A DNA stretch of 10,996 bases from a bacterium (GTDB lineage Bacteria; CG2-30-53-67; CG2-30-70-394), in assembly GCA_024278555.1 (NCBI GenBank), contig JAJRSX010000098.1, positions 1 through 10,996 of the forward strand, in the 5' to 3' direction. This document shows positions 477 to 10,996 of the stretch, piece by piece (position 1 is the stretch's first letter; each line of letters starts with the position of its first letter). Below the pieces are notes generated by a model. That model was not told the DNA's origin, searched no databases, and saw only the letters and a program-made list of their open reading frames with translations. The translations under genes were made by a program, and so were the position numbers.

Positions 477-1451
477 ATGTACTTCCCGATTACCCGCGGC
501 CGCCGCCTGCGCCGCACCGCCTCCCTCCGGCGGATGGTCCGTGAGACCCGCCTCTCCGTGGACGACCTCATCTATCCGATGTTCTCCACCGTCGGCAAGG
601 GGGTGAAGAGGCCCATCGCCTCCATGCCGGGGATCTTCCAGCAGTCGGTGGACCACATCGTCAAGGAGGCGAAGGAGGTCCACGGACTCGGCATCCCGGC
701 GGTGATCCTCTTCGGCATCCCCGACCACAAGGACGCCACCGGCTCGGGGGCGATCGCCGCCGACGGGATCATCCAGACGACGATCCGCGCCATCAAGGAT
801 GCGGTCCCCGAGCTGACGGTGATCACCGATGTCTGCCTCTGTGAGTACACCTCCCACGGCCACTGCGGGATCCTCAAGGGTGAGGAGGTGGACAACGACG
901 CCACCCTGCCGGTGCTGGTGGAGGAGGCCCTCTCCCACGCCGAGGCGGGGGCCGACATGGTGGCACCTTCGGACATGATGGACGGCCGCGTCGGCGCCAT
1001 CCGCGAGGCCCTCGACGAGGCTGACTACGGCCACCTCCCGATCATGGCCTATGCGGTGAAATACGCCTCCGCCTTCTACGGCCCCTTCCGCGAGGCGGCC
1101 GAGTCGACCCCCGCCTTCGGCGACCGGCGTGGCTACCAGATGGACCCGGCGAACGGCCGCGAGGGGCTGATCGAGGCGGCCATGGACGTGGAGGAGGGGG
1201 CCGACATCATCATGGTCAAGCCGGCGATGCCGTACCTCGACGTCCTGCGCACCCTGCGTGACGAGCTCGACCAGCCCCTCGCCGCCTACCAGGTAAGCGG
1301 CGAGTACTCGATGCTCAAGGGGGCGATCGAGCGTGGCTGGTTCGACGAGGAGCGGGTGGTGATGGAGTCCCTCACCGCCATCCGCCGCGCCGGCGCCGAC
1401 CTGATCCTCACCTACTTCGCAAAGGATGCAGCGCGATGGCTAAACGGCTGA
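477..1451 (+). CDS. hemB: Delta-aminolevulinic acid dehydratase (porphobilinogen synthase)
   Basis: A 324-residue enzyme, full length for the family, condensing two 5-aminolevulinate molecules into porphobilinogen, the second shared step of tetrapyrrole synthesis in the cytoplasm. The active-site lysines are visible: K195 in [13 protein letters not shown] and K248 in [11 protein letters not shown], the Schiff-base lysine. The catalytic zinc triad is intact as C120, C122 and C130 in [14 protein letters not shown], so this is the zinc-dependent form rather than the aspartate-rich magnesium form. Other family blocks present are [19 protein letters not shown] and [10 protein letters not shown]. 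The start is supported by GAGGAG at 466-471. It follows the cytochrome-like lipoprotein by 16 nt, and its last 16 nt overlap the next gene, so the three are probably co-transcribed. The context suggests haem supply tied to cytochrome c production. Confidence 0.97.
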
Positions 1452-2920
1452 GCAGGCCCCACTCCCGCGCGCGTGTGGCGGCTGCCACCCTGGCGGCGCT
1501 CCTCACCCTCCTCCTGCCGGCCGTCGCGCCGGCGGTGTCGTTGCCCCTGGAGGTCGAGGCGCAGGCCACCGACCTGTCGCCCGCCCAGCAGGAGGCCCTC
1601 AGCCAGTTCCTCAACGGGGAGAACTGCCCGTGCGGCTGCAACAAGGGGACACTCGCCAACTGCATCGCCAAGGACAGGAGCTGCTCCATCTCCCGCGGTT
1701 TTGCCCGCCAGGCGATCGCCGAGCTGCGCACCGGCAAGCCGATCGTCGCCGCGCGCAACGGCGTGGCGGGATACAAGAAGAGGGCCAAGCAGCAGCCCAA
1801 ACGGCTGCACCTCGACCCGAACAAGCGGTACGAGGTCAAGGTGGGTGACGCGCCGACCCTCGGCCCGGACGCCGCCCCGGTCACCGTCATCGCCTACCTC
1901 GACTACCAGTGCCCCTACTGCCGACGCGCCTGGCCGACCCTGGAGAAACTGCAAAAGTCGTTCCCCGACAAGGTGCGGCTGGTAGTCAAACAGCACGCCC
2001 TCCCCTTCCACAAGCAGGCCCGCACCGCCTCCCGCGCCGCCCTGGCGGCCGCCGAGCAGGGCCATTTCTGGGAGTACCAGGCGGCTCTCTTCAGGAAGGG
2101 GCAGAAGATCGACCGGGACAGCCTCATCGCCCTCGCCGGGGAGCTGAAGCTCGACGTGGACAGGTTCACCAAGGCGATCGACTCGACCCGCTTCGACGCC
2201 CAGATCGACGGCGAAGGGGCCGAGGCGGTGCGCCTCGGGGCCACCGGCACCCCCACCACCTTCATCAACGGCAAGCCCCTGGTGGGTGCCCAGCCGTACG
2301 CCTACTTCGAGTATCAGGTACGCCTGGCGCTCGGGGAGAACCCGAAGCCGCCGCCACCGCGCAAGCGCAAGGCGCGTGGTCCGAAGGTCGACCCGAACAA
2401 GCGGTACGACATCAAGGTGGGCGAGGCGCCGGTGCAGGGGCCGGCCTCGGCACCGGTCACCGTGGTCACCTATCAGGACGCCCAGTGTCCCTACTGCCGG
2501 CGGGTCTGGCCGACCCTCAAGGAGCTTCGCGAGAAGTTTCCCGACCAGGTGCGGATCTCCATCAAGCAGCACCCGCTGCCCTTCCACAAGCAGGCACGCA
2601 TCGCCTCGCGCGCCGAGCTCGCCGCCCAGGAGCAGGGCAAGTACTGGGAGTACAAGGATCGCCTGATGGCCAATGGTCAGCGTCTCGATCGCGACAGCCT
2701 CATCGCCCTGGCGAAGGAGGTCGGCCTCGACGTGGACAAGTTCACCGCGGCGCTCGACTCCGACCGCTTCGACAAGCGGATCGACGCCGAGTCCCAGGAG
2801 GCCATGAAGATCGGCGCCACCGGCACCCCGGCAAGCTTCGTCAACGGCCGCTACCTGCGCGGCGCCCAGCCGTACGCCAACTTCGAGAAGGCGGTGAAGG
2901 CGGCCCTGGAAAAGAAATAG
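1436..2920 (+). CDS. Secreted CPCGC (CcmH-like) plus tandem DsbA-like thioredoxin protein
   Basis: A 494-residue exported thiol-disulfide protein. Residues 1-35 or so are a Sec-type signal (basic [13 protein letters not shown], then an Ala/Leu core). Residues 45-120 hold a cysteine cluster, C64-P-C66-G-C68 with C76 and C83, followed by a helix ending near ELRTGKP; this pattern recalls CcmH-type cytochrome c maturation proteins. Two DsbA-like domains (Thioredoxin_4 type) follow: CPYC at 159-162 with cis-proline P273, and CPYC at 351-354 with cis-proline P465. Each is introduced by DPNKRY and contains [11 protein letters not shown] and GATGTP. The domains are collinear at a constant 192-residue offset. 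Likely role: periplasmic oxidation, reduction or isomerisation of cysteines, possibly on apocytochromes. The ATG at 1436 overlaps hemB by 16 nt, with AAAGGA about 10 nt upstream. It could instead be a general disulfide oxidase; no DsbB or DsbD partner is seen. Confidence 0.88.
1811..2917 (+). repeat. Intragenic tandem duplication of the DsbA-like domain
   Basis: The segment from 1811 to about 2335 is repeated from 2387 to 2917 at a constant spacing of 576 nt (192 codons). The copies align without gaps from the DPNKRY lead-in through CPYC, the KQH...LPFHKQAR block and GATGTP to the C-terminal helix. The first 22 nt after the opening base are identical at DNA level. By eye, well over half of residues match between copies, so the duplication is fairly recent or held together by selection. 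The linker between copies is Pro/Lys/Arg-rich (residues about 303-315). Confidence 0.9.
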
Positions 2921-3037: not shown

Positions 3038-4516
3038 TTACCGGTCGGCGACCAACGCCCCGGCCACCGCCGCCATCAGCGCCTTGCGGTCGAAGGGCTT
3101 GGCGAGGAAGCCCTGGACCGCCTGGGCCCAGGCGGCATTGGTGACCGACTGCTCGCTGTAGCCGCTGGTGATCACCACCGGCAGCTCCGGGAGGAAGCGA
3201 CGCAGGGCCGCCACCACCTGCGGGCCACGCTTGCCCGGCATGGTGAGGTCGAGGAGGACGAGGTCGATCTCGTCGCCCCGCCGGCGGAGGAGCTCCAGGG
3301 CCGCGTCGCCGCTGTCGGCGGTCACCACGGTGTAGCCGCCGCGGTTGAGGAAGCGCTCGGCAACCATCCGCACCAGCGGCTCGTCGTCGACCACCAGGAT
3401 GGTCCCGCCCCCCGCCTCGCCCGCCGCCGCCTCCACCGGTCCTCCCCCACGCGCAACCTCCACCTCGGCGCGGCCCTCCAGGGGCAGGTGGATCTCGAAG
3501 AGGGTCCCCTCGCCAGGGGTCGACTCGACGCGCATCTCGCCCCCCGCGGCGAGGACGATCTCGCGACACATGGCCAGCCCGAGGCCGGTGCCGCGACCGA
3601 CCCCCTTGGTGGTGAAGAAGGGGTCGAAGATGCGTTGCTTTACCTCATCGGTCATCCCCATGCCGGTGTCCCGGACACGCAGGGTGGCGCGGCTGCCGTG
3701 GACGCGCACCGTCAACTCCAGGGTGCCGCCGGCGGGCATGGCGTCGCGGGCGTTGCAGCAGAGATTCATCACCACCTGCTGTACCCGGCCCGGTGGCAGG
3801 GGGACGCCCACCGCTTGATCCCGCAGGTCGGTGCGCACCTCAATCCGTGGGTCGAGGGTGTGGCGCAAGAGCGCGGCGATCGACTCGACGCAGCCGCACA
3901 GGTCCGCATCTCCCACCCCCTCCGGGTCGTCACGGGTGTAGGCGAGGATCTGCCCGGCAAGCCCCGAGGCGGCACGGGCGGCGCCCTCCAGACGGGAGAC
4001 CATCCGAACCTCCTCCCCGTCGTCGGGAAGCGTCTCCTTGAGGAGGCCGGCGATCCCGAGGATGCCGGTGAGATAGTTATTGAAGTCGTGGGCGACTCCG
4101 GCGGCGACGCCGCCCAGCCCCTGCAGCCGCTCGCTGCGCAGGATGTCGTCCTCCATGTGGCGCTGGAGGGTCACGTCGGCAAAGACCGCCAAGACACCGC
4201 CGTTCCACCGGCGGCAGGTCATCCGGTACCAACGCGACCCACCCGCGGCACAGTCGTGGCGCAGGCAGGACTGGCGCACGGCGCCGTCGTCGAGGGTCGC
4301 CCGCACCGCCACCTCCCACCCCGTCGCCTCGCTCTCCGGGGTCGGCGGCAGACCGCGCGGGAACCATTCGGCGAATCGGCAGCTACACCACGGAAGCTGG
4401 AGGGCGGCGTCGAACCAGGCGATCGCCAACTCCGTGCCGTCACACACCGCCTCGAACAGCTCCAGATCGCGCGGGGAGAGGCATGGAGGATTGGAGGTGG
4501 GAGAGAGCGGCTTCAT
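3038..4516 (-). CDS. Hybrid sensor histidine kinase with C-terminal receiver domain
   Basis: A 492-residue soluble kinase with no membrane segment or signal peptide. Residues about 15-120 are PAS-like, with a PAC-like ending before VFADVTLQRHMEDD. The HisKA H-box is VAHDFNNYL with phospho-acceptor H143, of the HDFNN (NtrB/HPK4-like) type. The HATPase domain has an N-box with N251 and N255 (NLCCNARDAM), G1 DTGMGM (283-288), F-box FDPFFTTK and G2 GRGTGLGLA. A linker of about 25 residues leads to a receiver with acidic pair D377/D378, phospho-acceptor D423 (LLDLTMPG), S451 and K473. No output domain follows, so phosphate must pass to another protein. The ATG at 4516 is preferred over an in-frame GTG at 4570, which would add 18 residues; neither has a good ribosome site. 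The gene is divergent from the HEAT/HD-GYP cluster, which it might regulate, and convergent with the redox operon. Confidence 0.93.
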   Translation of the reverse strand: MKPLSPTSNPPCLSPRDLELFEAVCDGTELAIAWFDAALQLPWCSCRFAEWFPRGLPPTPESEATGWEVAVRATLDDGAVRQSCLRHDCAAGGSRWYRMTCRRWNGGVLAVFADVTLQRHMEDDILRSERLQGLGGVAAGVAHDFNNYLTGILGIAGLLKETLPDDGEEVRMVSRLEGAARAASGLAGQILAYTRDDPEGVGDADLCGCVESIAALLRHTLDPRIEVRTDLRDQAVGVPLPPGRVQQVVMNLCCNARDAMPAGGTLELTVRVHGSRATLRVRDTGMGMTDEVKQRIFDPFFTTKGVGRGTGLGLAMCREIVLAAGGEMRVESTPGEGTLFEIHLPLEGRAEVEVARGGGPVEAAAGEAGGGTILVVDDEPLVRMVAERFLNRGGYTVVTADSGDAALELLRRRGDEIDLVLLDLTMPGKRGPQVVAALRRFLPELPVVITSGYSEQSVTNAAWAQAVQGFLAKPFDRKALMAAVAGALVADR

Positions 4517-4528
4517 CGTTGGCCAACG
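4517..4528. promoter_or_regulatory. Perfect 12-bp palindrome abutting the kinase start codon
   Basis: CGTTGGCCAACG reads the same on both strands and directly touches the ATG (4516-4514, minus strand) of the hybrid kinase. It occupies the place where a ribosome site would normally be and lies in the 136-nt divergent gap shared with the first HEAT gene. It could be an operator for a dimeric regulator or a start-site hairpin with a GGCC loop. No family assignment is possible from sequence alone. Confidence 0.3.
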
Positions 4529-4652
4529 GAGAGGTTCCAACCCGTTGAATCGGCAACCCACCGGCCGCACCTAACTAAGTTTGGACCCGGTTGGGGAGAT
4601 CGCGGAGGACGCCGATAGAGAGGGCTGCGCCCCCACCGGCGGACGTGGGCCC

Positions 4653-6665
4653 ATGGCGAACGACATCTCTCCCAACCCCGAGCTCACCCTCGCGACCACC
4701 CTGGAGCTGTGCCGACAGCTCCAGCGAACGGTGCGCGCCATCGCCCTCTACGGCGGTGACCACCCGGCAACGGGCCCGGCGGTGGAGGGGTTGGTAGTGC
4801 GCTACCGCGAGGTGGCGGCGATCGTCCACCTCGCCTTCGCCCCGGACCAGCTCATCGTTGACGGCCGGGAGACCGACCTCGACCCGTTCCTCACCTCCCT
4901 CACCAACCACCTGCATGCCCTCGGCGTTGCCCGAATGACCATCTCTCCCGGCGCGAAGGAGGACGAGGTGGCCGCCCTCGCCTACCACCTCGCCCGGCGC
5001 CCGGAGGAGGAGTTCGAGGAGCCGTGCCTGCCCCATTTCACCATGGAGGGGCTGGAGTACGTGGCCGTCGCCGCGAGTCGCAGCGCGGTGGCCGCCTCGG
5101 ACGCGGAGATTGCGGAACGCCAGCGGCAGCTCTGGCGGGCCCTAGCCACCGGCCGTCTCGGCGCCCACGAGGCCCTCGACAGCGAGGCCCAGGCCTTCGT
5201 CGAGGAGATGATGCGCCACAAGGGGAGCCTGCAGGAGCTGATCCGCACCCTCCCCGTCGACGACGCGGACCCCGCCGCCATCGACACCCCCCGTCTGCCC
5301 GGTAAGATGGTCGCCCGCCTCCTCCACCACCTGGACAGGGCGGGGCCTGGGGGGGCGGACCGCGACGGTATCGCCGCCAACATCGCCGCCCGCCTGATGG
5401 AGCTGGAGCCGGAGACGGTGGCCGACACCCTCGCCGACGAGGAGGCGCCGCAGGAGCTCATCGCCCGTGGCCTGGCACTGCAACCGAACGACGACCTCCT
5501 GGAGATGATGGCGGCGGTGGTCCGCGCCGAGGGGGCGGACTCCACCCGCATGAGCCACTGCATCGGCGCCTTCCTCTCCCCCGAGGCGCGTGCCTCCGGC
5601 CTCCTGCCGCAGGTCCGCCAGCGCCTCCACAACGCCGCCGAGGCGGGGGACGGCGAGCACCTCGCGGTGTGGCAGCGGGTCGAGGAGATCGCCCTGGAAC
5701 AGAGCGGCAAGCGGTACATGTCGAGCGCCTATGAGGAGCAGCTCGACGACTTCGCCGTCGCCCACTTTCCCAACATCTCCCGGTACCAGGACGACGACCG
5801 CCTCGACGCCGAGCGTCTCGCCACCCTGGAGCCCGACGCCCTGGCAGCCGACCACACCCACCTCCTCCTCGACCTCCTCGCCGACGAGACAAACCCGGAC
5901 GCCTTCCGGGAGGTGGTCGCGGCCCTCGGTGGGCGGCTGACGCGGGCGGTGGAGGAGCAGGACTTCGACCTCGCGACCCTCATCTCCGCCGATTTGAAGC
6001 ACCATTGCAGGACCGATAGCCCGCGGCCGGAGGGGTTCAAGCAGATGATTCGCCAACAACTCGGCGCCATTGGCGTGGAGGAGATGGTCGACCGCGCCCT
6101 CGGCGAGGTGCGCAACGTGGAGGCGGCGTGGTCGGAGACCTTTCACGCCTTCCTGTCGATCTTCGAGCGCGTCATCGCCCCCCACCTTCTCGACCGCCTG
6201 CGGGAAGAGGAGGACCGCCGGGTCCGCCGCACGATCATGGCGACCCTCGCCCGCTTTGCCGCGGATCTGGTCCCGGAGCTCATCCGCCGCCTCGACCGGG
6301 CGCCGTGGTTCTACGCCCGCAACCTGGTCCACCTCCTCGGAGAGTCCGGCTCCGAAGAGGCGGTTCGCCCCCTCACCCTCGCCCTCGGCCACGCCGACGC
6401 ACGGGTCGCCAAGGAGGCGATCGTCGCCCTGCGGGAGATCAACTCGCCACGCGCCCTCCCCTTCGTGATCAAGGCCCTCACCGTGGCCCGTGGTGGTGCC
6501 ACCGCCGACCACGACCGGGTCCGCGTCGAGGCGGCCCGCTATCTCGCCCACAACCGGTCGCCCGCCGCGATCGAGGCGCTCCGCAAGGGGGTCTTGAGCC
6601 AACGCCCGGCGGTGGCGGAGGCGTGTCGTCGGCTCCTCCACGACCAGCCCGGAGGCGACTCATGA
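4653..6665 (+). CDS. HEAT-repeat protein, module A (shares N-terminal domain with HD-GYP partner)
   Basis: A 670-residue soluble protein, mostly alpha-helical. Residues about 12-140 form an N-terminal domain with ALY33GGDH37PAT, then a DQLIVDG turn and GVARMTISPG; equivalents occur in the three following genes. The middle part (about 150-520) is helical and acidic, with LDSEAQAFVEEM conserved in the paralogue at 8189. The C-terminal part (about 530-665) is HEAT-like: RRTIMATLARF, then a W552-FYARNLVHLLGE block, ADARVAKEAIVAL, SPRALPFVIKAL and RVEAARYLA, each a short helix pair. The likely role is a protein-protein scaffold; no catalytic residues are recognised. The ATG at 4653 is chosen because an upstream TTG at 4581 adds 24 unlikely residues; no clear Shine-Dalgarno is present. 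Its TGA overlaps the next ATG (ATGA, 6662-6665), implying translational coupling. The exact function is unknown. Confidence 0.85.
   Translation: MANDISPNPELTLATTLELCRQLQRTVRAIALYGGDHPATGPAVEGLVVRYREVAAIVHLAFAPDQLIVDGRETDLDPFLTSLTNHLHALGVARMTISPGAKEDEVAALAYHLARRPEEEFEEPCLPHFTMEGLEYVAVAASRSAVAASDAEIAERQRQLWRALATGRLGAHEALDSEAQAFVEEMMRHKGSLQELIRTLPVDDADPAAIDTPRLPGKMVARLLHHLDRAGPGGADRDGIAANIAARLMELEPETVADTLADEEAPQELIARGLALQPNDDLLEMMAAVVRAEGADSTRMSHCIGAFLSPEARASGLLPQVRQRLHNAAEAGDGEHLAVWQRVEEIALEQSGKRYMSSAYEEQLDDFAVAHFPNISRYQDDDRLDAERLATLEPDALAADHTHLLLDLLADETNPDAFREVVAALGGRLTRAVEEQDFDLATLISADLKHHCRTDSPRPEGFKQMIRQQLGAIGVEEMVDRALGEVRNVEAAWSETFHAFLSIFERVIAPHLLDRLREEEDRRVRRTIMATLARFAADLVPELIRRLDRAPWFYARNLVHLLGESGSEEAVRPLTLALGHADARVAKEAIVALREINSPRALPFVIKALTVARGGATADHDRVRVEAARYLAHNRSPAAIEALRKGVLSQRPAVAEACRRLLHDQPGGDS
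6651..6655 (+). promoter_or_regulatory. Ribosome binding site of the module A HD-GYP gene
   Basis: GGAGG lies six bases before the ATG at 6662, inside the end of the HEAT gene. It decides the start and supports the overlapping ATGA arrangement. Confidence 0.75.
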
Positions 6666-8047
6666 GTCAGGCCACCTTCCGCCTCAACCACGCGCCGGCC
6701 ACCCCGGCCGCGGCGGTGTGCGACTGCTTCGCCCGCCTCTTCACCGCCCTCCATCGCACCTCCCTCTACCCGGCTGACCACCCGGCCTGTCGCGACGCAG
6801 TGGCGGCGGTCGCCACCGAGCTCGCCGAGATCCTTGACCGCGACAACACGGTGGCCGCGGCGGTGGTCGACGACCGCCTTCTCCTCAGCGGCTACCCCCA
6901 GGGTGAGAACGAGATACGCCTGCCCGGGGGGATGCGCGACCTGCACCGGTGGTCCATCGAGCACCTCGCCTTCGAACGCGGGGTGATGTTGAAGGAGATC
7001 CAGGCCCTCTTCGGCCTCCTCCACCGGCGGCCCGCCGACGGTGAGGACGCCACCACCGTCCTCAGCCGCGAAGGCGTCACCCACATCAAGGTCGGCCGCC
7101 TCTCCACCGGTGGCAACGCGGCGGTCAACGAGACGGTCGGGATCCGCCTCTATCGGCAGGCGGTGGAGGAGGTGGCCGCAATCCACCGGCAGGTCGGCGA
7201 GCACCGGCAGGTGGACCTTGGCCAGGCACGCCACATCGTCGAGGCGGTGATCGAGGATCAGCAGCGCGGCGACCAGCTCCAGGCCCTCACCTGGCTGAAG
7301 AGCCACGACGACTACACCTACACCCATGTGCTGAACGTCTGCATCCTCACCGTCGCCCAGGCGCGCACCCTCGGCATGAAGGAGGCGCGGCTGAACGCCA
7401 TCGGCGTCGCCGCGCTCCTCCACGACACCGGCAAGTGCTTCGTCCCCCCGGAGCTCCTGCGCAAGCCGGGCAAGCTCACCGCGGCGGAGTTCGAGGTCGT
7501 CAAGCAGCACCCCGCCCTGGGGGCGAAGCTCCTGCGCTCCCTCCCCCACGTGGACGACCTCACCGTCCTGGTGGCCTACGAACACCACATGCGCTTCGAC
7601 GGCAGCGGCTATCCGGAGCGCGCCCACCCTCGCACCCCCAACCTCGCCTCGCGCCTGTGCACCATCGCCGATTACTACGACGCCCTGCGCACCATCCGCA
7701 GTTACAAGAAGGAGATCACCCCGGACGAGGCCCTGCGCATCATGTCCCAGGGGGCGGGCACGGTCCTCGACCCGGTCTTGTTCAAGCACTTTGTCGAGAT
7801 GGTCGGCCTCTACCCGCGCGGCTGCCTGGTCCAGCTCACCGACGGCCGGGTCGCGGTGGTAGTTGCCACCCGCACCGGCTTCGCCACCCTGCCCATGGTG
7901 CGGGTGGTCACCGACGAGGATGGGGCGCTGCTCTCCAATCCGGTGGAGGTTGACCTGGCCGCTGGCCGCGCCGACGACCAGAGGCTCGGCATCGACCGGG
8001 CGATCGACCCCAACACGGTGGAGATCGCTCCCGAGGCATACCTTTAG
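6662..8047 (+). CDS. HD-GYP-type phosphohydrolase, module A
   Basis: A 461-residue cytoplasmic protein. Residues about 15-150 form the N-terminal domain shared with its neighbours (SLY36PADH40PAC, then VVDDRLLLSG, ending HIKVGRLS). Residues about 205-385 are an HD-GYP domain: H222 in THVLNV, H254-D255 and K258 in LLHDTGK, H283 in KQHP, H308-H309 followed by DGSGYP (313-318), and D337 in IADYYDAL. A C-terminal segment (about 386-461) reads RGCLVQLTDGRVAVVV, a small beta-rich tail seen in related proteins. Family members usually hydrolyse cyclic di-GMP through a di- or tri-iron centre. One departure is that the canonical HHE signature reads HHM, with the glutamate placed before the histidines (EHHM). 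Strong GGAGG at 6651. Overlaps the HEAT gene by 4 nt. Phosphodiesterase activity is likely but not certain; another cyclic nucleotide substrate or a degenerate, non-catalytic role is possible. Confidence 0.92.
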   Translation: MSQATFRLNHAPATPAAAVCDCFARLFTALHRTSLYPADHPACRDAVAAVATELAEILDRDNTVAAAVVDDRLLLSGYPQGENEIRLPGGMRDLHRWSIEHLAFERGVMLKEIQALFGLLHRRPADGEDATTVLSREGVTHIKVGRLSTGGNAAVNETVGIRLYRQAVEEVAAIHRQVGEHRQVDLGQARHIVEAVIEDQQRGDQLQALTWLKSHDDYTYTHVLNVCILTVAQARTLGMKEARLNAIGVAALLHDTGKCFVPPELLRKPGKLTAAEFEVVKQHPALGAKLLRSLPHVDDLTVLVAYEHHMRFDGSGYPERAHPRTPNLASRLCTIADYYDALRTIRSYKKEITPDEALRIMSQGAGTVLDPVLFKHFVEMVGLYPRGCLVQLTDGRVAVVVATRTGFATLPMVRVVTDEDGALLSNPVEVDLAAGRADDQRLGIDRAIDPNTVEIAPEAYL

Positions 8048-8188
8048 CTGCAAGCCGCTTTTCGGCACGATGAACCTTGCCCACGGGACATCGCCGCATC
8101 CTCGGTCGTCCCGAAGTTGAATCGGGCGCGGTCGCCCGACGCTCCACGAACGCTCCCTCACCCCATCCCCACCCCATACCGCCCACCC
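8048..8188 (+). promoter_or_regulatory. Hairpin-rich leader between the two HEAT/HD-GYP modules
   Basis: This 141-nt gap contains GCCG/CGGC (8054-8057 and 8063-8066, loop CTTTT). It also has CGGGAC/GTCCCG (8084-8089 and 8108-8113) with an inner CCG/CGG. CGATG/CATCG (8068-8072 and 8089-8093) competes with that stem. The strongest hairpin is a tight 7-bp stem TCGGGCG-CGGT-CGCCCGA (8122-8139). The last 40 bases before the ATG at 8189 are almost entirely pyrimidine plus A, with no Shine-Dalgarno. It may hold a terminator or attenuator for module A and the promoter of module B. I do not see a cyclic di-GMP riboswitch core or a clear -35/-10 pair. Confidence 0.35.
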
Positions 8189-10243
8189 ATGTCGGCCACC
8201 GAGCCCCACGCCCTGCCCGAGGCTCCGCCCGAATTCGTCGCGGCAGCCCTCCCCATCCTCCGTGCCCTCAGCGGCGCCTGGAAGGGTGCGCAGCTCTACA
8301 CCGCCGGCCACCCGTCGGTGGCCGAGGCGGTAGGCCGCCTGCACGAGGCATATGCGGAGGCGATGAAGGACCACCTCCTCCTCTCTCTCACCTTCCCCGG
8401 CGACGAGGTCGCGATCAACGACGGCCGGATCCCCGATCTGGAGGTGGGGCTCTCCCGCCTCTCCGCCCACGTCCACGCCATCGGCCTGGCGACCTTGCGC
8501 TTGGCGCCCGGCGCCACCCCGGACCACCTCGCCCACGTGGTCGAGGTCCTCGCCACCCCCCGGCCGGTGGTCCTGCAGGCGGGACGGATCGACGCCTTCA
8601 TCGACGAGGAGCGCCTCGGCCCCCTGCGCCTGCTGCCGCTCGACTACCGCCCCATCTTCCAGGTGGGGGCGAACGGCCTCCCCGGCCGGGCCCAGCTCGT
8701 CGACCCGGCGGGCCTCTGGTACGCGATGATCACCGGCTACGTGGTCCACGCCCCGGACCGCCTCGACAGCGAGGCGCGCTCGTTCATCGAGGCCTTCGCC
8801 ACCGACCCGACAAAGCTGCGCCACCTGGCCGACGAGCTCGCCCACCTGGAGCTCGACGAGGAGTGGATCGACATCCACAAGGTGAAGGGGACGCTGCTGG
8901 CGAACTTCTACCGCAGCCTCGGCCACCTCCTGCACACCGGCGAGCTGAAGCCGGAGGTGGCCACCGGCGTCGCCCGGGCCACCGAGCGGCTGGAGGCAGA
9001 TCGGCTGGTGGCCCTGGTGGCGGAGGTCTCGGAGGAGGACGAAGGGGTCGTCGACGAGCTCCTCGCCGCCTTCCAGCCGGAGCGCGCCGCCAACCTCTTC
9101 ACCACCGCCGGCGCCGCCGGGGAGTCGCTGGTGCAGGTGGCCGAACGGCTCCTCACCGTCCACCCGGAGAAGAAGCGGATCCTCGACCTCCTCGACGCCA
9201 GCGAGCAGGAGGTCGCCGCCCTGGCCGGCGACGGCCCCCCTACCATGGAGGCCCTCCGTGCCCTCTGCAGCCGCCTCGGCGAGGGCGCAGCCCTCGACCT
9301 CCTCCACGAGGCGCCCGGCGGGGTGGCGAGCGACTATGTCGACCAGCTCCGGTCGCTCACCGAAGATCGTGAGATCTGCACCCAGCTCCTCCGCGACCTC
9401 GCTCTCGAAGCGGCGGAGCAGGAGCGCGCCGAGCTCCACCTCACCCTGATCGAGCAGGAGGAGGACCCGGAGGAGCTCGACGACCAGCTCGCCACCCTCG
9501 TCGCCCTCGCCCTCTCCACCGCGGTGGACGGCCGCTACCACGCCACCCTCTCCGTGGTGGAGGGGCTGGTCTCCCTTGCCGCCAACGAGGAGCTGACCCC
9601 GGAGCGTCGGGAGCGGATCCAAGCGGCGGTCGACCGGCTGCCGGTGGCGGAGATCGTCGCCCTGCTCACCAGCGGTTACGGCGACTACGGCGCCACCCCG
9701 ACCGAGCGGGACGTGAGCCGTCTCATCACCGCCCTCGGGGAGCGGGCGATCGAGAACCTCCTCGACCGCCTGCGCGAGACGGACGATCGCTCCGAACGAC
9801 GGGCGATCGTCACCCTCCTGAAGAACCAGGGTGACGCCATCCTGGGGCGGGTAGCGGCGCGGCTGCACGACCCGGCGTGGTACTTCGTCCGCAACCTGCT
9901 CCATCTGCTCGGCCTCTTTCACGCGGAGGAGAGCGCCCGCCTGGTGATTCCCCTGCTGCGCCACGCCGACCTGCGGGTGGTGAAGGAGGCCCTCACCACC
10001 CTCGGCCGGATCGGCTCGCGCCAGGCGACCCCCTTCATCGCCCAGCTCCTCCTCACCGAGCCCACCCTGCCGTCCCGCCACTCCGACGAGCTGCGGGCCA
10101 GCGCCGCCCGCGCCCTGACCCACCTCGACGACCCGCGTGCCGCCCAGGCGCTCCAGCGTGGCACCCGCACCCGCCGTGCCGCCGTCGTCCAGGCGTGTGC
10201 CGCGGCCCTGCGCGAACGCGAAGTCGGAAAGGGCGAGGGATGA
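8189..10243 (+). CDS. HEAT-repeat protein, module B paralogue
   Basis: A 684-residue soluble protein homologous along its length to the HEAT protein at 4653-6665. The N-terminal domain (about 15-155) has AQLY37TAGH41PSV, DEVAINDGR and GLATLRLAPG. The middle has LDSEARSFIEAF, matching LDSEAQAFVEEM in module A. The C-terminal HEAT part contains ERRAIVTLLKNQG, a W564-YFVRNLLHLLG block, ADLRVVKEALTTLGRIG and SAARALTHL, followed by a helix rich in Arg/Ala. No enzyme motif is seen; a scaffold or regulator of the adjacent HD-GYP protein is the simplest reading. The ATG at 8189 is chosen over an in-frame TTG at 8117, whose extra 24 residues are Pro/Arg-rich and unlike the paralogue; there is no Shine-Dalgarno. 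Its TGA overlaps the next ATG in ATGA (10240-10243), exactly as in module A. Confidence 0.84.
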   Translation: MSATEPHALPEAPPEFVAAALPILRALSGAWKGAQLYTAGHPSVAEAVGRLHEAYAEAMKDHLLLSLTFPGDEVAINDGRIPDLEVGLSRLSAHVHAIGLATLRLAPGATPDHLAHVVEVLATPRPVVLQAGRIDAFIDEERLGPLRLLPLDYRPIFQVGANGLPGRAQLVDPAGLWYAMITGYVVHAPDRLDSEARSFIEAFATDPTKLRHLADELAHLELDEEWIDIHKVKGTLLANFYRSLGHLLHTGELKPEVATGVARATERLEADRLVALVAEVSEEDEGVVDELLAAFQPERAANLFTTAGAAGESLVQVAERLLTVHPEKKRILDLLDASEQEVAALAGDGPPTMEALRALCSRLGEGAALDLLHEAPGGVASDYVDQLRSLTEDREICTQLLRDLALEAAEQERAELHLTLIEQEEDPEELDDQLATLVALALSTAVDGRYHATLSVVEGLVSLAANEELTPERRERIQAAVDRLPVAEIVALLTSGYGDYGATPTERDVSRLITALGERAIENLLDRLRETDDRSERRAIVTLLKNQGDAILGRVAARLHDPAWYFVRNLLHLLGLFHAEESARLVIPLLRHADLRVVKEALTTLGRIGSRQATPFIAQLLLTEPTLPSRHSDELRASAARALTHLDDPRAAQALQRGTRTRRAAVVQACAAALREREVGKGEG
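10228..10233 (+). promoter_or_regulatory. Ribosome binding site of the module B HD-GYP gene
   Basis: AAAGGG lies six bases before the ATG at 10240, with a further GAGGG immediately upstream of the start. It sits inside the last codons of the HEAT gene and supports coupled translation. Confidence 0.5.
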
Positions 10244-10996
10244 AGACCGACGAGCAACGGCGCCACTCCCCCGAGGCGGTCGCCTTCGTGCAGCTCCTCT
10301 TTGGCGCCCTGCGCAACCGGGAGATCTATCCGCCGGGCCACCGGGTCCTGGAGGTGAGCGCCCAGCGCCTCGCCGACACCCTCGGCCCGGCCCTGGCCGG
10401 ACAGCCGGCCCTGCATATCGGGATCGTCGACGACAAGGTGGTCCTCGGCGAGTACCCCCTCTCCCAGGGGATCGCCCCGTCACCGGCGCAGCTCGCACCG
10501 CTCAACGAGCGCGAGGTGGAGCGCATCACCTTCGACGCCGAGACCTCCGCCGAGGAGGTCGCCGTACTCCTCGACGCCCTGGTGGCCGAGGCGCCGGTGG
10601 CCGACACCCTCGCCGCGGCCGGGGTGACCACCATCCGCGTCGGCCGCCTCACCGTCGGCGGCGGCAAGAGCGGCCGGCGATCGCTGGCCGAGCTGTACAA
10701 CGAGCTCTACCGCAACGCCGCCTTCGCGGTCCGTGACCTGCTCACCGTCTGCCGCGAGCGCGGGGTGGTAGAGCCGGGCGCCGCCCAGGCCACCGTCAGC
10801 GAGGTCGTCGGCCAGGCGGAGGCGGGGGAGGAGCGGCTCCTCGACCTCACCAACCTGCCGCGCCAGGAGGGCGAGGCCTTCTCCCACGCCCTCAACACCT
10901 GCATCCTCTCCGTCTCCCTCGGCCGCGACCTCGGCCTCACCGCCACCCAGCTCCGCGACTTGGGGACCGCGGCGCTCCTGCACGACATCGGCAAGC
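10240..10996 (+). CDS. HD-GYP-type protein, module B, 3' truncated by window end
   Basis: The first 252 codons of a gene that runs off the window; no stop is reached. The N-terminal domain (about 12-140) has REIY30PPGH34RVL, IVDDKVVLGEYP and TIRVGRLTVGGG, paralleling SLYPADHPAC, VVDDRLLLSGYP and HIKVGRLSTGG in the HD-GYP gene at 6662. The start of the catalytic domain is present: H216 in SHALNTCILSV and H248-D249 in LLHDIGK, 32 residues apart as in module A. The GYP half lies beyond the window, so its metal-ligand set cannot be judged. ATG at 10240 overlaps the HEAT stop by 4 nt, with AAAGGG at 10228-10233 as ribosome site. Presumably a cyclic di-GMP phosphodiesterase or a diverged relative, paired with the HEAT protein before it. 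Confidence 0.9.
   Translation, partial: MKTDEQRRHSPEAVAFVQLLFGALRNREIYPPGHRVLEVSAQRLADTLGPALAGQPALHIGIVDDKVVLGEYPLSQGIAPSPAQLAPLNEREVERITFDAETSAEEVAVLLDALVAEAPVADTLAAAGVTTIRVGRLTVGGGKSGRRSLAELYNELYRNAAFAVRDLLTVCRERGVVEPGAAQATVSEVVGQAEAGEERLLDLTNLPRQEGEAFSHALNTCILSVSLGRDLGLTATQLRDLGTAALLHDIGK

Follow-up and report, generated by a model that had tools for sequence, protein, structure and literature searches.

HD-GYP enzymes are usually explained by a fused sensor domain. The partners reported for RpfG of Xanthomonas are GGDEF and PilZ proteins (PMC4877007), and enzymes with a Y-T-Y cluster at the position of E185 in PmGH belong to the Y/F HD-GYP subfamily, which is predicted to be binuclear (Bellini et al., PMC4159591). 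Single mutants of PmGH at Tyr285 or Asp305 retain some activity (PMC4159591), and the loss of the GYP tyrosine and a change of Asp to Asn are features given for Bd1817, which is inactive on c-di-GMP (PMC8177086). No description of HEAT-repeat and HD-GYP proteins as one system was found in the open-access literature, most subscription papers being outside the scope of the search, and the initial annotation likewise named no known system with this composition. PmxA of Myxococcus was ruled out as a match, being a Cache-HAMP-HD-GYP protein. The individual protein families are known, while their combination, the N-terminal domain that they share and the scale of their conservation appear to be undescribed.

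Two HEAT/HD-GYP gene pairs in the window

The window (the whole stretch of 10,996 nt that was analysed) is all or the beginning of contig C67 from a genome of 3.06 Mb in 211 contigs. Four open reading frames on the plus strand bear out the order HEAT, HD-GYP, HEAT, HD-GYP proposed by the initial annotation: HEAT-A (4653..6665; 670 aa), HD-GYP-A (6662..8047; 461 aa), HEAT-B (8189..10243; 684 aa) and HD-GYP-B (10240..10996), the last being open at the contig end with 252 aa visible, which finish in LLHDIGK just past the HD motif. The 4-nt ATGA stop/start overlaps claimed for HEAT-A/HD-GYP-A (6662..6665) and HEAT-B/HD-GYP-B (10240..10243) could both be read in the sequence and are real. Paralogy, suggested earlier for both types of protein, was recovered by sequence comparison, with HEAT-A and HEAT-B collinear and 27% identical over residues 13-679 (E 4.6e-39) and HD-GYP-A and HD-GYP-B 28% identical. 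The two pairs are separated by 141 nt (8048..8188) in which no terminator-like site was seen and no promoter or terminator scored above shuffled sequences, a test that is uninformative at the G+C content of the window. Elsewhere in the window, two tandem DsbA/thioredoxin domains are encoded in one protein (1436-2920, plus strand) adjoining hemB (477-1451), and a hybrid histidine kinase with a C-terminal receiver domain (3041-4570, minus strand) is divergent from HEAT-A across a gap of about 80 nt.

Both HEAT proteins matched HEAT_2 (PF13646) in Pfam, HEAT-A with 47.7 bits (E 1.9e-12) and HEAT-B with 46.4 bits (E 4.8e-12) against a cut-off of 27.7 bits. Their identification as HEAT proteins held on these matches; the recognisable repeats, however, are confined to the C-terminal part. 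HEAT-A consists of an N-terminal LYPxxHP-type domain, a long helical region and C-terminal HEAT repeats that are recognisable at residues ~541-646 (6273..6590; PF13646 and PF03130). Residues ~150-540 are helical and of low confidence in the predicted model. Fold comparison of the model returned alpha-solenoid matches spanning residues 356-670, all of them generic solenoids; the HEAT part filled the match list, so that the N-terminal domain was barely probed.

Catalytic residues and the diverged second copy

HD-GYP-A is made up of an N-terminal domain, the catalytic HD-GYP domain (7307..7777) and a short C-terminal beta region. It matched HD_5/HD in Pfam (E 9e-29), with scores well above the cut-offs for both PF13487 (100.8 bits; cut-off 27.2) and PF01966 (57.3 bits; cut-off 22). 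The motif HD...HH...GYP is present (H254-D255, G316-Y317-P318), seven of the eight metal ligands of PmGH are shared (H222, H254, D255, H283, H308, H309, D337) and the residues equivalent to PmGH D183, K225 and D308 are also kept. The remaining ligand, E185, is replaced by Tyr218, the first residue of a Tyr-Thr-Tyr at PmGH positions 185-187, which places HD-GYP-A outside the trinuclear (E/D-T-G) HD-GYP subgroup. Alignment of 63 pairs to PmGH revealed that H189, H221, D222 and K225 are invariant in all 63, that H250, H276 and H277 are invariant where covered and that Y285 and D305 each fail once only, with Tyr at the E185 position in 60 of the 63. As the catalytic residues are nearly invariant and the Y-T-Y cluster is present, HD-GYP-A is predicted to be an active, binuclear phosphodiesterase, and the cyclic-dinucleotide phosphodiesterase role that the initial annotation had assigned is, at the level of sequence, supported for this copy. 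Neither HD-GYP-A nor HD-GYP-B gave a Pfam match to a REC domain, unlike RpfG-type response regulators, and by inspection the module of the window is cytoplasmic.

The part of HD-GYP-B past the HD motif is absent from the window and is known from one orthologue only. The closest relative, Nitrospirae bacterium CG2_30_70_394 of the same genus (L008), carries the full quartet, which, as in the window, adjoins hemB and the gene with thioredoxin domains; its HD-GYP-B is complete (L008:11795-13171; 458 aa). A search of the source assembly for the missing remainder of HD-GYP-B turned up nothing beyond the window itself and HD-GYPs that are unrelated, and no third module was found in the 2 kb downstream of the L008 quartet. 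About 240 bp of extra DNA (L008:11558-11794) separate HEAT-B from HD-GYP-B in this relative, at the place where the window has a 4-nt overlap.

HD-GYP-B of the window has Glu at the PmGH D183 and E185 positions, and the L008 orthologue has GFP for GYP, Asn for D305 (the last metal-binding Asp) and Gly for R314. Judged from this orthologue, HD-GYP-B lacks both an intact GYP and the last metal-ligand Asp, and HD-GYP-B of the window lineage is the sole strongly diverged active site among the 63 pairs. Catalytic inactivity of HD-GYP-B is therefore likely from its residues but unproven, because the single PmGH mutants keep some activity and a Glu occupies the E185 position. The gene is not decaying, as indicated by the identity between the two congeners of 84% for HEAT-B and 87% for HD-GYP-B and by a dN/dS of 0.26-0.28 for module B; the corresponding identities are 70% for HEAT-A and 77% for HD-GYP-A.

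Tandem HEAT/HD-GYP/HEAT/HD-GYP arrays were also present in a deltaproteobacterial MAG (L011) and in L149 (G551). Within the phylum of the window, the duplicated quartet belongs to the window's own family, and a single pair is present in its sister family. The HEAT tree groups both copies within each array (support 0.98, 1.0 and 0.98, with 0.98 for the HEAT-A/HEAT-B clade), so the duplication most simply occurred three separate times. The same grouping was recovered for L011 and L149 in the HD-GYP tree, which leaves the diverged HD-GYP-B unplaced. The initial annotation had read the duplication as two inputs or a heteromeric assembly. Because the second enzyme holds the only strongly diverged active site, a combination of a catalytic and a regulatory copy is likelier than two equivalent inputs.

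A shared N-terminal domain and co-inheritance of the pair across phyla

A domain of ~110 residues with an LYPxxHP motif (the NTD) is common to the HEAT and HD-GYP partners and lies at the N-terminus of both. In the window it occupies 4686..5000 in HEAT-A, 6710..7036 in HD-GYP-A (profile matches and model), 8234..8560 in HEAT-B and 10270..10596 in HD-GYP-B (profile matches for both). The first ~140 positions of the HEAT-protein profile matched the N-termini of HD-GYP partners (E 1e-8 to 1e-15), and profile-profile comparison of the HEAT NTD with the HD-GYP NTD gave a probability of 99.5% (E 1e-21) over 107 collinear columns; all seven control profile pairs, of which almost every one compared other regions of the two proteins, remained below 1%. 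The fold is identical in order in both AlphaFold models (mean pLDDT 82 and 74), running through two helices, three strands, a helix, a strand and a helix. No Pfam family matched above noise among 25 NTDs, and the search by sequence for a solved structure gave noise-level matches only. Profiles told the two NTD types apart in 141 of 144 unseen members during cross-validation, which indicates old, distinct paralogous types and not recent copies; the NTD of one HD-GYP subgroup has diverged beyond the reach of the profile. The NTD was absent from the reading of the initial annotation and is the best clue to how a HEAT/HD-GYP pair could assemble.

A genome search with the NTD alone, blind to neighbouring genes, found the domain in 7 of the 8 genomes of the window's small phylum and in 121 of 297, 75 of 118 and 46 of 149 genomes from the phyla of three relatives. 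In the phylum of a gammaproteobacterial relative it was found in 2 of 200 genomes, both with marginal matches. The initial annotation had proposed a search for adjacent HEAT and HD-GYP genes with an ATGA-type overlap, and homologues found mostly apart were to count against a functional pair. Instead, among 52 evaluable NTD-HEAT loci (at least 1.5 kb of downstream DNA; chosen from the top matches and not strictly random), 48 had an HD-GYP gene directly downstream on the same strand and 26 had an overlap of exactly 4 nt. In the completely listed genome sample from the phylum of G015, 64 of 97 NTD matches have a further NTD on their own strand at a distance of 1-3 kb, and none of the 97 has one on the opposite strand. 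An NTD pair was present in 25 of the 46 positive genomes of this phylum, and the other 21 appear to have solitary NTD genes.

The trees of the HEAT and HD-GYP partners are congruent (Mantel r 0.87 over 76 pairs), an agreement for which species phylogeny could account. Within genomes, paralogues keep matching partner types in 102 of 102 informative comparisons (non-independent; 13 genomes with at least two pairs), a result that species phylogeny is unable to explain and that physical linkage can, and which therefore shows co-inheritance and not contact. The HEAT/HD-GYP pair is conserved and co-inherited across several phyla, and chance adjacency is ruled out by the adjacent loci, the matching of paralogues and the same-strand spacing of NTDs.

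The genes flanking the pair in a few relatives, read by eye, were varied and housekeeping-like, with no common pathway seen among them. At one locus (L088; G005:C69, minus strand 2276-2743) an apparent remnant of the HD-GYP partner, with the NTD motif followed by loss of frame, adjoins an intact HEAT gene. In the phylum of G015, small PF01966 HD hydrolases of a different type (L150:2528-3208, L154:3902-4573 on the minus strand, L158:2308-3045 and probably L153:2384-3064) overlap and precede solitary NTD-HEAT genes, and HEAT proteins may there be paired with this other enzyme. A short-HEAT subtype was also observed, in which a convergent HEAT-profile gene, mostly of ~190-220 aa, lies downstream of the pair on the opposite strand (L098, L111, L112, L114, L116, L118, L119, L123, L124 and L134); the product in L112 is a pure HEAT-repeat protein.

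The NTD also occurs in proteins of ~1280-1430 aa from three phyla that combine GGDEF and AAA_16 with one or two NTDs and, in complete chains, with HEAT repeats (L100:1039-5334, L101:1396-5676, L102:167-4438, L146:829-4671 and L155:133-3039, the last ending at a contig end before any HEAT part). Their GGDEF domains matched with E about 1e-39 to 1e-42, and [AG]GDEF was present in four of the five read. Several genomes with such fusions appear to have HEAT/HD-GYP pairs too. As the NTD and HEAT repeats are also fused to an intact GGDEF, the same scaffold is tied to both sides of cyclic-dinucleotide metabolism, and the fusion is the best functional hint beyond the HD-GYP domain itself. The idea that the two fused NTDs represent one HEAT type and one HD-GYP type was unsupported, most being HD-GYP-like or ambiguous. 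The source genome of the window has 8 GGDEF and 5 HD-GYP domain matches. At L090:2218-4518, an NTD protein has a C-terminal part that resembles a degenerate GGDEF (no Pfam match) and adjoins a GAF-HD-GYP gene (4615-5859).

Possible modes of action and comparison with known systems

We consider it fairly probable that the pair forms a two-gene cyclic-dinucleotide phosphodiesterase module, in which the paralogous NTDs dock the catalytic subunit onto a HEAT subunit of its own and which is duplicated here as a canonical and a divergent copy. One module would consist of a HEAT protein followed by a cytoplasmic, usually translationally coupled HD-GYP cyclic-dinucleotide phosphodiesterase, and the window would hold two. 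The two NTDs, an ancient paralogous pair, would interact and hold the partners in a 1:1 or 2:2 complex. The HEAT solenoid would serve as the regulatory or targeting subunit, either recruiting a client or sensing a state, and could control the breakdown of c-di-GMP or 3',3'-cGAMP in the vicinity of the client. After duplication in the window lineage, module A would have retained the canonical active site, while the HD-GYP of module B would have gained Bd1817-like changes and, under purifying selection, may be catalytically weak or a regulatory subunit. The complex, its substrate and its output are what we infer. A broader proposal, which we hold more tentatively and at somewhat less than even chances, is that these proteins represent an undescribed, widespread class of complexes with a phosphodiesterase carried on a HEAT solenoid via an NTD heterodimer, and with a sister architecture that joins the same scaffold to a diguanylate cyclase and an AAA ATPase. 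If so, one scaffold family would organise both synthesis and breakdown, with lineage-specific catalytic/pseudo-catalytic duplication.

The direction of control could also be the reverse, with the HD-GYP protein acting mainly as a cyclic-dinucleotide receptor (a trigger enzyme) whose binding or turnover switches the HEAT partner, the HEAT protein then being the output that binds a client. The retention of a divergent copy with Bd1817-like changes under purifying selection would suit such a role, as would the nature of HEAT solenoids as protein-binding platforms (generic matches only), but nearly all copies keep the full catalytic set, more than a mere receptor needs, and we regard this as unlikely. 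A little less likely still is that the genes are co-expressed and co-inherited and their products form no complex, each protein using its NTD independently to sense one and the same ligand. In favour of this, solitary NTD-HEAT genes exist, with no NTD pair in 21 of the 46 NTD-positive genomes from the G015 phylum, the NTD occurs twice in one chain with GGDEF, physical linkage alone can give matching trees, and 4-nt overlaps and co-inheritance do not prove contact because they are also found in operons with non-touching products. Independent sensors would not, however, lead one to expect immediate adjacency in a fixed order across three phyla, about half of the loci having a 4-nt overlap, nor two NTDs that are separate old types, as is expected of subunits that bind each other. 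An anti-phage or other conflict system is very improbable: HD-GYP-like enzymes can act on 3',3'-cGAMP (PMC8177086), but none of the four proteins matched a PADLOC family (E 0.001), the flanking genes read by eye in the few relatives look to be of a housekeeping kind and the pair has been co-inherited as a unit over long times.

The docked phosphodiesterase module that we favour resembles RpfG-GGDEF and other HD-GYP networks in that an HD-GYP enzyme would act via protein partners. The reported partners of RpfG, however, are GGDEF and PilZ proteins and no HEAT protein, and the window module is by inspection cytoplasmic and has no REC domain. An analogy, but no more than that, can be drawn with the PP2A holoenzyme, in which a metal-dependent phosphoesterase has a HEAT solenoid of its own (the A subunit). 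PP2A A subunits occur among the generic solenoid matches of the HEAT-A model, although the homology is that of generic HEAT only and the enzyme family is unrelated to HD-GYP. In structural comparison, the HD-GYP-A model matched best to Bd1817 from Bdellovibrio bacteriovorus (PDB 3tm8/3tmb/3tmc/3tmd), with Z 25.8 and rmsd 2.7 A over 235 residues (model 69-382 on chain 14-306). This match runs upstream of the HD domain, with the first two NTD helices (LYPxxHP) outside the aligned range and no similarity of Bd1817 to the NTD at the sequence level. The orthologue of HD-GYP-B further resembles Bd1817 in having neither the GYP Tyr nor the last Asp, which is Asn, and the N-terminal region of Bd1817, so far an orphan, may find a context in the module.

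The nearest described enzymes are the Y/F HD-GYP phosphodiesterases, which HD-GYP-A resembles in its HD_5/HD matches, its HD and GYP motifs and its Tyr-Thr-Tyr. It differs from them in having an unnamed NTD in place of REC, GAF, PAS or Cache, and in having a dedicated upstream HEAT partner that bears the same NTD. In a large, multi-phylum subgroup of HD-GYP enzymes, regulation appears to reside on a dedicated HEAT protein, a separate chain with the same NTD as the enzyme. For bacteria in which the inputs and outputs of cyclic-dinucleotide control are mostly unknown, this would, if true, name both a partner and a docking domain, together with a wide range of genomes in which to test them.
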